From Azotosporobacter soli (GTDB taxonomy: Bacteria > Bacillota > Negativicutes > SG130), in assembly GCF_030542965.1 (NCBI RefSeq), contig NZ_JAUAOA010000003.1, positions 1 to 64,000 on the forward strand: a stretch of 64,000 nucleotides of DNA, read 5' to 3'. Shown here one piece after another: positions 16,541 to 20,146 of the stretch. Under the pieces are notes generated by a model, which saw only the letters and a program-made list of their open reading frames with translations, was not told the DNA's origin and searched no databases. Position 1 is the stretch's first letter; each line of letters begins with the position of its first letter. The position numbers were made by a program, and so were the translations under genes.

Positions 16541-17641
16541 TCAACCAATCTCTCTAGCGCCCACCCTGCGTTGCTGACTCTGCAGCGCATTTTTGCGGAT
16601 GATTTCGATTTCCCGTTCCGTGATCGCTCTTTCAAAGCTGCGAAAACCAGCTAGCTTGAAACCATGTTTCTCTGCCAGTTTGGCAATCGTTTCAATCTGC
16701 TCAACCGATAATTCACGCCCCAGCGTAAAAGGCTCATAGCGTCCTTCCAGCGCTAAAATCATCGTTTCCGCCATACACGCATACGCGGTTCCCGGCGGAA
16801 AACCGAACTGCAAACCAAAGTCGACATTTCCCGGCACCTCGACGACGCCGCCTTCAATCACTAAGACATCGTTGCGTTTTTCCGCCACTTGGCGCGACAC
16901 ATTGCGCGGTCTGGCCACGTCGCAGACAATTGCGCCCGGTTTCAGGTCTTCCGGTTCGATGATCGTATCGAGCGCGCTGGTGACCGCAATGATGATATCG
17001 GCCGCTCGGACCGCCGTCTTCACTTGCGAAGTTGTTTTTGCACTGCAGCCGCTTTCTTTATACAGCTCTTGCGCCAGCTGTTCCAAACGCTGTTCATTCC
17101 GCGCCGCGAGCGTTAGGTTGCGCACTTCCCGTCCCAAAATTCGCGCACAGGCGGCTCCGATCGAGCCGGTTGCCCCGAGAATCAAGACATTCGCCTGACG
17201 CAAATCGACGTCCATCACCTTCGCCGCCTGGCGGGTTCCCTGCAGCGCAGTCGCCACCGTATAGCTGTTTCCGGTGGTCACGGCAATATCCAAATTTTGT
17301 GCAATCGTAATCCCGGCATCGCCGACAATCGAGGTGAATGCACCGAGGCCGACGATCTTCGCGCCCAATTTTTCAGCCGCTTTGCCGGCCTGAATGATTT
17401 TTTTCAACACTAACTCTTCCGGCAATTCTATCATTTGACGCGTCGTCAGCGGACACGCCATGAACCAGCCTTCCGCTTCTGCGTGGGCCGATTGAATTCC
17501 GGTTATATGAGACGCCTTAAACGACGGCACATGACGAATGATTCCTTCAATGACACCATCGGGTAAGCGCTGGCAAATCGAAAACTTCCGTCCGAAATCT
17601 TTGGCTGCCAACGGATGCAATATAAAGGCGAATTTTTCCAT
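16541..17641 (-). CDS. NAD(P)-dependent dehydrogenase related to acyl-ACP reductase (COG5322-like)
   Basis: 366 aa from ATG 17641 (ribosome site GGGGAGGAATAAG). A C-terminal Rossmann domain has the GATGSIGAACARIL dinucleotide loop (about 160-175). Before it lie GLGAFTSIVGD and TTGNSYTVATA, which strongly recall the cyanobacterial long-chain acyl-ACP reductase (GGFTSI, TTGNTHT). The cysteine near the C-terminus in TAYACMAETMIL matches the place of a conserved cysteine there. The true substrate in Firmicutes is not known; annotations vary between shikimate-dehydrogenase-like and amino acid dehydrogenase. It is the third gene of a trio with a regulator and a partner of unknown function. Confidence 0.75.
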   Translation of the reverse strand: MEKFAFILHPLAAKDFGRKFSICQRLPDGVIEGIIRHVPSFKASHITGIQSAHAEAEGWFMACPLTTRQMIELPEELVLKKIIQAGKAAEKLGAKIVGLGAFTSIVGDAGITIAQNLDIAVTTGNSYTVATALQGTRQAAKVMDVDLRQANVLILGATGSIGAACARILGREVRNLTLAARNEQRLEQLAQELYKESGCSAKTTSQVKTAVRAADIIIAVTSALDTIIEPEDLKPGAIVCDVARPRNVSRQVAEKRNDVLVIEGGVVEVPGNVDFGLQFGFPPGTAYACMAETMILALEGRYEPFTLGRELSVEQIETIAKLAEKHGFKLAGFRSFERAITEREIEIIRKNALQSQQRRVGAREIG

Positions 17642-17660
17642 CTTATTCCTCCCCTTCCCC

Positions 17661-18566
17661 TTACGTCCAGCACTCAATGCGCGGTTTGACGGCCAAACGA
17701 TCCAATAACGCTTCATAATCTTGCGCAGTCAGTTCCGCAGCCTTTTTACCCGCCATCGCGACAAGCACCGCTTCCATCACATTCGTCCCGAAGGAACGAC
17801 CGTCAAGTTCGGGCGTTGTTGTAATCAGAAGCGATGCGCCGCTTTGCCGCAGCAGTTCTTTGTCTTTGTCCGTCACCGTATTCGTAATGACGATTTTTCC
17901 TGGCAGCCGATCCGGCATATAGCGCCGGATAAAATGAAGATCACCGGCAATAATGTCTGCAGCGTTAAACGCCGCAGCAAATTTAGGTCGTCGTTCCTGT
18001 TGCGTTTCGCCTGTCGGATAAAAAAGACTGACGGGCAGTCGCGTCACAACCGGCGCCAAGATCCGCGCAAGACGATCCAGCGCCTTCAGGCTGTGCAGCG
18101 GAAGCGGCAGGCCAAGGCCAAACATCAGATCGCCATAGCTATTGATGCAGCCCACTTCCTCTAAGGCTTCCGCCATGCCAAAACGGTCAACCGCGCACAC
18201 CATCAGAGCCCGCTTGCCCTTAAATTGAACAATGCCGTCTTTTGCCAACTGGCGAATGACGCGCCGTTCCAACGTATTCTTCAGGCCGCTGCCGTCAACA
18301 ATCGGCGTTTCCTTTGCAACCGCCGCGATTTCAGCCGACTCCCGAAAGGTATAACGGCGGTTTCCTGCATAAATAAATAAATCGGTACCGCCCAGACCGA
18401 ACGCATCCACTTGACCGTCCAGTCGCCGCAGCAAAGCTTTAGCTGCGGCTTTATCGCCATCAGTCCCGATCCGTTCCAGTCGGACTTTCTGTCCGGCAAA
18501 TTCGCTGACTGCCACGTGATTGCGGCTCGACGAACCCAGACTGATGCTGACCACATGCTTTTCCAT
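17661..18566 (-). CDS. Protein of the family loosely named quinate 5-dehydrogenase; function unproven
   Basis: 301 aa, cytosolic. It begins with VVSISLGSSSRNH and has conserved-looking blocks IGTDGD, DAFGLGGTDLF, TPIVDGSGLKNTLERR and ITTTPELDGRSFGTNVMEA. I see no classical Gly-rich Rossmann loop, so the database name, which I recall for this family, looks weakly founded. Its stop and the next gene's ATG are 19 bp apart. Its start overlaps the regulator's stop. The tight trio points to one shared pathway, probably with the acyl-ACP-reductase-like enzyme. Confidence 0.6.
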   Translation of the reverse strand: MEKHVVSISLGSSSRNHVAVSEFAGQKVRLERIGTDGDKAAAKALLRRLDGQVDAFGLGGTDLFIYAGNRRYTFRESAEIAAVAKETPIVDGSGLKNTLERRVIRQLAKDGIVQFKGKRALMVCAVDRFGMAEALEEVGCINSYGDLMFGLGLPLPLHSLKALDRLARILAPVVTRLPVSLFYPTGETQQERRPKFAAAFNAADIIAGDLHFIRRYMPDRLPGKIVITNTVTDKDKELLRQSGASLLITTTPELDGRSFGTNVMEAVLVAMAGKKAAELTAQDYEALLDRLAVKPRIECWT

Positions 18567-19087
18567 TAAACTACCAACTCTCTTATCAAACTACGCAAGC
18601 GTTCCGGATCAACATAGCGGTCATCCTCAATCGGAGACTCGCCGATCTGCAAACCAATCACAGCCTTATCAAGCAGCGTCTCCATCAGCTTGATCCTAAG
18701 GTTTGATCCCAGCATGATGATAATGTCATATTTACGTAAAGTCGCCATAATTTCCATCAAGCCATTAAACAACTCTACGCCGCTCTTGCTTTGTAAAAAA
18801 TTCCAACGTTCTTTTTCCGACATCAGCAGAACGAAATCTACGCCTTCTTCTTCAGAAATTTGGCGTAGTTCCTGGCAATTTTCAATAGGAAATCCGACCA
18901 GTGCCAAACGGGCTCCTTTGCGCACTTCCCCGACCGTTTCCAGTTTTGAAACCAAGCTACGATCGATGCCAAGTGAATTCGCCGCTTCCTGCTGTGAAAA
19001 GCCTTGACGACGCATATCCAACATGTCATCGACTAATTGATAAATTTTATTACGGTTAACAATTTTGTCTCCAATTCGAAGCAACAT
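18566..19087 (-). CDS. HTH (XRE/Cro-like) transcriptional regulator, probably autoregulated
   Basis: 173 aa from ATG 19087. An N-terminal helix-turn-helix (QGFSQQEAANSLGIDRSLVSKLE, about residues 30-50) is followed by a conserved domain with GARLALVGFPIENCQEL and DIIIMLGSNLRIKLMETLL that may bind a ligand. The frame opens at 19165, but that start would translate the operator palindrome and the -10 box, so the shorter start is preferred although its ribosome site is weak. It heads the trio and overlaps the next gene by 1 nt. Likely represses or activates the trio. Confidence 0.78.
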   Translation of the reverse strand: MLLRIGDKIVNRNKIYQLVDDMLDMRRQGFSQQEAANSLGIDRSLVSKLETVGEVRKGARLALVGFPIENCQELRQISEEEGVDFVLLMSEKERWNFLQSKSGVELFNGLMEIMATLRKYDIIIMLGSNLRIKLMETLLDKAVIGLQIGESPIEDDRYVDPERLRSLIRELVV

Positions 19088-19111
19088 AGGAAACCATCCC
19101 GTCATTTCTAT

Positions 19112-19131
19112 TGTGCGCATAAATGCGCACA
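19112..19131. promoter_or_regulatory. Palindromic operator before the HTH regulator
   Basis: TGTGCGCAT-AA-ATGCGCACA is a perfect 9-bp inverted repeat. A -10 like TAGAAT sits at 19137-19142 on the minus strand, so the palindrome falls on the start point, a normal place for a repressor site. It is 25 bp before the chosen start codon. Confidence 0.75.
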
Positions 19132-19180
19132 TAGTTATTCTACCATTCTTTCCGTAAAATAACACGTGAATTTTTTCTTA

Positions 19181-20146
19181 TTACCCCCAAGGATCAAACG
19201 GAAAACGGGCGATGACTTGCTGATATGTCTTAAGCTGCAAGACCGTATCATCATGGCTCATGCCTTTTTTCAAACCCTGCATGACCCTAAGACCCGGCGC
19301 TAAACTAAGCCCGATTTCACCGGTCAGCTCCGACATCGTCTTGCGCCGCGCCTCGCTTAATGAACGCGCCATTCCTTTACCGCCTCTAAGGTTGTCGGTA
19401 AAATCGCGCGCCAGATAAAAGCGGGCCAGATTCGTCATCGGATTTCCGCAAATGCCGCTATCGGTATGCCCGATGATTTCCGGCAAGGTAAACCGGATGC
19501 TGTTTTCAACCGACTGCTTCAACTCCGTCGTTTCGCGAATCACCGACATCAGCAACGTCTTCGCCGTGCACAAGCCATAGCCGCTCAGCGCGCGAATGAT
19601 GGCATGTTCGATCGTGTGCGCCTGCTCTTTCGAGACCAGTCCGCCCAGATTCGCGCTCACGCTGACTTCCCGCTCGCTCTCCAGATCGGTGCCGTAAATC
19701 GTCACCGGCAAATCAGCTTCACTTCTAAACTCGGTATAACCGCCTTGCGGCAGCCAACCGGCGCCGGAAATCACCGGATATGTCTTGCGGCTTTGACGAA
19801 AATTCATCCGCTTTAGCTGTCCGGCAAAAAAGTAACCATCCTCTTCCCGCAGACTATGCCAGCGTACGTGTTCGCAGCCTTCGAGCGTCGCCAAATAAAC
19901 GACAAGCGGCGTACCGTCTTCTGCAACCGCCTGTTCCTGAGAGATTTCCCTGATGCGAGCACTGACCCCCACCGGATAGAGACTCTCCTCTTCCGCCTGC
20001 CAAGGACAAAGCAAGACTTCATTTTTCGCGCCCACTTGAAACAGCGCATCGCCGCCCTGTTCCGGCAAAAAGACGCCGGCAATGATGCCGCCGCCCGGCC
20101 GCGGCAATATTCCATTGGCTACCGGCAGGACCAACATCGCTTCCAT
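19181..20146 (-). CDS. Protein of unknown function with LON-substrate-domain-like N-terminus
   Basis: 321 aa from ATG 20146 (ribosome site GGGAGGACGCCGA). Residues 1 to about 115 read like a Lon N-terminal (PUA-like) domain: LPVANGILPRPGGGIIAGVF, NEVLLCPW, LYPVGVSARIREI and TPLVVYLATLEGCEHVRW follow the Lon pattern of strands. The C-terminal half has an unusual HTIEHAIIRAL motif (about 225-235) and a cysteine pair further on, and matches nothing I recognise; the HxxEH element may bind metal. No ATPase or protease domain is present. It starts 13 bp after dusB and is probably co-transcribed. Confidence 0.55.
   Translation of the reverse strand: MEAMLVLPVANGILPRPGGGIIAGVFLPEQGGDALFQVGAKNEVLLCPWQAEEESLYPVGVSARIREISQEQAVAEDGTPLVVYLATLEGCEHVRWHSLREEDGYFFAGQLKRMNFRQSRKTYPVISGAGWLPQGGYTEFRSEADLPVTIYGTDLESEREVSVSANLGGLVSKEQAHTIEHAIIRALSGYGLCTAKTLLMSVIRETTELKQSVENSIRFTLPEIIGHTDSGICGNPMTNLARFYLARDFTDNLRGGKGMARSLSEARRKTMSELTGEIGLSLAPGLRVMQGLKKGMSHDDTVLQLKTYQQVIARFPFDPWG

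Follow-up and report, generated by a model that had tools for sequence, protein, structure and literature searches.

The closest described relatives of the locus analysed here are enzymes that pair a thioester reductase with a class III aminotransferase. For PigE of the prodigiosin pathway, PMC8341465 describes reduction of the thioester before transamination, and TamH of the tambjamine pathway is described, in part of PMC9594044, as using L-Glu and NADH to convert an ACP-bound C12 thioester to the amine. An aminotransferase joined to a COG5322 domain also makes up KecF (koreenceine) and related fusions of transaminases, according to sections of PMC6498172 and PMC10829540. A further relative is cyanobacterial acyl-ACP reductase (AAR), in which the acyl-bearing catalytic cysteine is C294, as given in a section of PMC10829540.

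The 64-kb stretch of Azotosporobacter soli DNA analysed here (the window) contains three genes, HTH, MID and RED, with the following features:

19137-19142, minus strand: -10-like box TAGAAT, 5 bp upstream of the operator
19112-19131, no strand assigned: operator palindrome TGTGCGCA-TTTA-TGCGCACA, an exact 20-bp palindrome preceding HTH
18566-19087, minus strand: HTH, 173 aa, helix-turn-helix regulator with a Rossmann-like C-domain
17661-18566, minus strand: MID, named 'quinate 5-dehydrogenase', 301 aa, predicted AAR fold without the GxxGxxG loop, no conserved Cys column
16541-17641, minus strand: RED, AAR/PigE-type thioester reductase by sequence, 366 aa, Cys289 invariant
16525-16497, minus strand: greA promoter, perfect TTGACA-17-TATAAT, from a consensus scan

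As with PigE and TamH, the system combines thioester reductase and class III aminotransferase families, which many Bacillota encode as a fusion, in either order, and its predicted chemistry likewise runs from thioester through aldehyde to amine. Unlike PigE and TamH, it is encoded on the chromosome throughout the phylum, as an operon that includes a regulator, an operator and MID, is usually unfused and has no pigment gene cluster at the loci read. KecF shares the combination of aminotransferase and COG5322 domain; it differs in belonging to a natural-product cluster, for which the sections cited above describe neither MID nor HTH. RED has the fold family, catalytic cysteine, NADPH loop and motifs of cyanobacterial AAR, but scored 131 bits against the long-chain acyl-ACP reductase model TIGR04058, below its cut-off of 449.7. 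Also unlike the cyanobacterial system, aldehyde decarbonylase, already noted as absent near the locus in the original prediction, was found in none of 60 relatives, the control being found in Synechococcus, and alkane synthesis was rejected. The reductase–aminotransferase pairing is known from PigE and TamH; what is new is a system that spans the phylum, the operator that goes with it and MID as a family, and we found no description of this operon among the open PMC papers searched.

The reductase, the aminotransferase and the proposed pathway

By its sequence matches RED is a thioester reductase of the AAR/PigE type. It matched the PigE reductase region in NCBIfam at 5e-69, PDB entry 4ppm at 2.4e-36 and AAR (6jzq) at 1e-29, although its score with the PigE equivalog (233) was below the cut-off of 850. 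The motifs AFTSI, TTGNSYT and GATGSIG, from which an AAR-type enzyme had been proposed, are all present. Alignment sets the AAR stretch FACFAEAM over YACMAETM of RED, so that Cys289 matches the acyl-bearing cysteine of AAR; this residue was invariant (48/48), as were the key glycines of TTGNSYT and GATGSIG.

RED is accompanied by a class III aminotransferase of the PigE/putrescine type, which in A. soli is encoded by a separate gene (G000:C1, about 17856-19226). We searched for this enzyme with the L168 protein as query and a cut-off of E 1e-85, set after seeing a gap in the matches from 5e-87 to 1e-77; matches weaker than the cut-off resemble ArgD. Within the class (n=60) it was present in 34 of 36 genomes with MID and in 0 of 24 without, the two MID-positive genomes lacking it (G001 and G018) both being incomplete, and in family f16 three MID-positive genomes have it and three MID-negative genomes do not. 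Among 299 phylum genomes, 163 had both RED and the aminotransferase, 28 RED only, 5 the aminotransferase only and 103 neither; the aminotransferase was thus found in 163 of 191 genomes with RED compared with 5 of 108 without, and in none of the 37 that have MID and lack RED. Since the genomes are related, these counts overstate the number of independent events.

The two enzymes are also physically joined. In genomes without an intact RED beside MID, the RED found elsewhere lies behind an aminotransferase and joined to it (L173-L178), directly after one with a 37-nt gap (L168), near one (L169) or alone. When 20 phylum aminotransferase matches were fetched for their frames of more than 850 aa, all 20 loci carried aminotransferase and RED in one open reading frame, with the aminotransferase first in 19 and RED first, as in PigE, only in L254. 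The fusion directly follows HTH-MID in L245, L246 and L123, and in L246 it is flanked by dusB and lysS, that is, at the usual site; in L222-L225 the trio has an aminotransferase no more than 8 kb away. Against the PigE equivalog the L173 fusion scored 530.8, below the cut-off of 850. Among the neighbours listed for PigE-like aminotransferases (L226-L241), no recurrent partner was recognised. These data, with the fusion as the strongest evidence, suggest that the aldehyde is transaminated, and its likely fate is an amine rather than an alkane or plasmalogen.

A protein of about 150 aa, hydrophobic by eye and with no Pfam match, adjoins RED in L168 (2730-3206) and L171 (945-1391).

In the class, a gene for a START/COQ10-like protein (PF03364, 1.6e-21) lies directly 3' of the aminotransferase at 15 of 19 loci (20 fetched, the aminotransferase recognised in 19). 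This suggests that the substrate or the product is hydrophobic. Of the 60 class genomes, 31 have it, and all of these are MID-positive. In the same search it was absent from the A. soli genome, from G023, G035 and G055, where the strong aminotransferase match is of the PigE-like 474-aa type, and from the incomplete G001.

The explanation of the whole system that we favour, and consider reasonably probable, is as follows. The acyl group of a thioester, most likely acyl-ACP, would be moved onto Cys289 of RED and reduced there with NAD(P)H to the aldehyde, from which the class III aminotransferase, fused to RED in many relatives, would form a primary amine; the START-like protein present in most class relatives would handle the hydrophobic ligand. 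HTH would occupy the operator at the transcription start, thereby controlling its own operon, presumably by repression, its C-domain probably binding a pathway metabolite as the signal, and MID, a diverged AAR-fold protein, would act on the same acyl or amine compound as a partner or as a separate enzyme. The family of RED, its conserved cysteine, the fold of MID, the operator, the synteny, the fusion and the co-occurrence are computational results, from which we infer the substrate, the amine product, the cofactor, repression and the role of MID. The repeated RED–aminotransferase fusion suggests that Bacillota make an amine, possibly lipid-like, that has so far not been described. If the amine pathway is correct, compounds of a class hitherto described from no more than a few pigment and alkaloid clusters are made throughout a phylum. 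A more specific version, possible though doubtful, is that many Bacillota use RED, the PigE-like aminotransferase and the START-like carrier to make a long-chain alkylamine or a derived cyclic imine, hitherto undescribed, as a membrane or signalling lipid, with MID, after loss of the thioester-reductase active site, acting on this compound in a reaction of a new kind and being older in the locus than the reductase step.

The substrate may instead be small and polar. Class III aminotransferases often act on omega-amines, and the 415-aa type of aminotransferase in L196, a class relative, scored best with putrescine aminotransferase (539 bits, below the cut-off of 612; PigE, 427). RED and the aminotransferase would then convert an amino-acyl or dicarboxylyl thioester to a diamine or omega-amino acid, a polyamine-like product rather than a lipid. 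We regard this as rather unlikely, as the START/COQ10-like partner implies a hydrophobic ligand, the A. soli aminotransferase scores best with PigE, and tested members of the RED family use fatty or polyketide thioesters.

The 28 of 191 RED genomes that have no aminotransferase count against the favoured amine pathway and are what would be expected if the aldehyde fed ether lipids, plasmalogens or a fatty alcohol, with transamination as a side branch. The lack of a START-like protein in A. soli, whose aminotransferase is PigE-like, likewise counts against the favoured pathway. A BadF/DUF2229-like gene triple, recognised by eye upstream of the trio in L222, L223 and L225, fits the ether-lipid or fatty-alcohol reading. 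We consider that reading improbable, given the fusion and co-occurrence of RED with the aminotransferase and the loci as read, which show no conserved alcohol dehydrogenase or ether-lipid gene. The plasmalogen use suggested in the original prediction was therefore not borne out, the START-like neighbour also pointing to transamination. In the three loci just named, the triple lies between the aminotransferase and the trio, upstream of HTH.

The operator and its regulator

In the window HTH and MID share 1 nt and a 19-nt gap separates MID from RED, in agreement with the positions first proposed, and the perfect 20-bp palindrome expected before HTH is there. A consensus scan gave no full -35/-10 pair at the TAGAAT box before HTH, and the start point of the trio is therefore one that we infer. 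A perfect promoter in front of greA makes it probable that the trio is transcribed as a unit of its own. Rfam gave no match. Between dusB and HTH lies a 320-aa open reading frame (window 19181-20143, minus strand) with only a weak LON_substr_bdg match, which is conserved in many Negativicutes and some Clostridia.

The palindrome has no second match in the window at up to 3 mismatches (shuffles, mean 0.03), and in the A. soli genome it occurs exactly only at the trio, with one more place at 2 mismatches. We collected 95 HTH upstream regions and used the 93 of at least 150 nt, two shorter ones being dropped. Allowing up to 2 substitutions, we found the paired half-sites TGWRCACA-N3-5-TGTGYACA in 91 of these 93 regions, compared with a mean of 0.2 and a maximum of 2 in 100 sets of shuffled controls, and a stricter form with up to 1 substitution was present in 75, compared with 0 in shuffles. 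The family form of the operator is TGTRCACA-N4-TGTGCACA. The sites found end at a median distance of 25 nt before the start codon, and a TANNNT box lies within 16 nt 5' of the site at 79 of 91 loci (29 in controls). The strict motif was found in 18 of 60 class genomes, at a single place in each, just upstream of the trio by coordinates; the A. soli operator is a variant (GCGC for GCAC) that the strict pattern does not match. The simplest reading is that HTH would be a self-regulated regulator with nearly a single target. Its C-domain has a generic Rossmann-like fold, for which a structure search returned no informative relative (best Z 7.4).

Could the palindrome act in RNA, as the hairpin of an attenuator or terminator? 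The scan does read it as a terminator-like stem on the plus strand. However, the half-sites keep a mismatch across loci (TGTACACA versus TGTGCACA) that would be costly to a hairpin, and in those 79 of 91 loci a -10 box closely precedes the palindrome, which makes an RNA element quite improbable and argues for an operator.

Distribution and decay of the trio

MID was present in 36 of 60 class relatives and in 223 of 299 phylum genomes, and RED (E up to 1e-10) in 191 of the 299; both occurred in 186, MID only in 37, RED only in 5 and neither in 71. In the 80 named loci analysed, the best of a set of at least 563 and some of them ending at contig ends, HTH lies directly upstream of MID in 69, and RED lies within 600 nt downstream of MID in 63, including the decayed copies of L085 and L093. 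The usual gene order across Bacillota is dusB, HTH, MID, RED, greA, lysS, and named hosts include Sporomusa, Pelosinus, Moorella, Thermoanaerobacter, Heliobacterium, Phascolarctobacterium and Kyrpidia. The trio is an old, probably self-regulated Bacillota operon, and the conservation of genes and palindrome in Firmicutes by which the original prediction was to be judged is evident. MID was absent from the plasmids searched, and spread by plasmids was rejected. One locus from an entry named Acholeplasmataceae (L104) carries a Bacillota-type trio and probably comes from a misnamed metagenome-assembled genome.

RED-HMM matches showed a decayed RED in the RED position at L085, L093, L105, L127, L140 and L219 (a set that excludes L091 and L094, where the gene in RED's place may be either a decayed RED or something else). 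MID is retained at all six, and the genomes of L085, L105 and L127 have an intact RED elsewhere. Most of the 11 loci fetched from MID-positive, RED-negative genomes keep all or part of dusB-HTH-MID-greA-lysS. Of 16 genomes without an intact RED beside MID, 14 hold a RED match elsewhere or beside it, mostly fused to or adjoining an aminotransferase; in G364 the match is a fusion beside MID itself. The retention of MID where RED is decayed or absent indicates that MID is the core of the locus and RED its mobile part.

The distribution of MID overlaps with that of the sporulation protein SpoIVA: the two occurred together in 208 genomes, MID only in 15, SpoIVA only in 41 and neither in 35. That the operon is a sporulation trait is nevertheless very improbable, since A. 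soli has the trio and lacks SpoIVA, the 41 SpoIVA genomes lack MID, and the odds ratio is 12 for MID and SpoIVA compared with 120 for RED and the aminotransferase.

MID, a protein with a predicted AAR fold

Sequence searches with MID gave no match in Pfam or PDB and nothing above noise in NCBIfam. In its AlphaFold model (pLDDT 92) MID has the AAR fold, an assignment that comes from the predicted structure and not from sequence. The closest structures were four AAR chains (Z 14.9 to 14.0; best, VIA Z 14.9, rmsd 4.0, 248 residues aligned), followed by a carmabin-pathway TAD domain (13.7) and glutamate dehydrogenases (10.5). Homology of MID with RED by hhalign had a probability of 0.4% (local) or 0.1% (global). 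Aligned by eye, the two proteins show the same motif order, GLGGTDL/GLGAFTS, DGSGLKNT/TTGNSYT, AVDRFG/GATGSIG and GTNVMEA/ACMAET (MID/RED), an alignment that profile comparison did not recover.

MID has no conserved Cys column (best 33/67), whereas Asn262 is present in 67/67. By motif order in the by-eye alignment, Asn262 probably replaces the catalytic cysteine, and the same alignment removes the glycine loop from MID, which is therefore probably not a thioester reductase. Moreover, the 37 of 223 MID genomes without RED indicate that MID does something without the amine step. We think that it either is an obligatory partner or acts as an enzyme in its own right on the acyl or amine compound of the pathway; it would then represent a family, of enzymes or of partner proteins, that is new among AAR-fold proteins.

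The name quinate dehydrogenase, carried by a protein found in three quarters of the sampled Bacillota genomes, is wrong for MID, as had been suspected; the AAR fold, not visible in sequence, refines that view. Their names place RED and MID among the shikimate/quinate or amino-acid dehydrogenases, which is hardly credible: the match of RED to Pfam Shikimate_DH, though above threshold (58.3 bits, cut-off 24.3), covers no more than the Rossmann domain, RED scored 31.5 with the NCBIfam shikimate dehydrogenase equivalogs (cut-off 252), and MID has no Pfam match at all. Such an identity, or a lack of trio conservation, had been named beforehand as contrary to the original prediction; the trio proved to be conserved, and the families nearest to RED are PigE and AAR.
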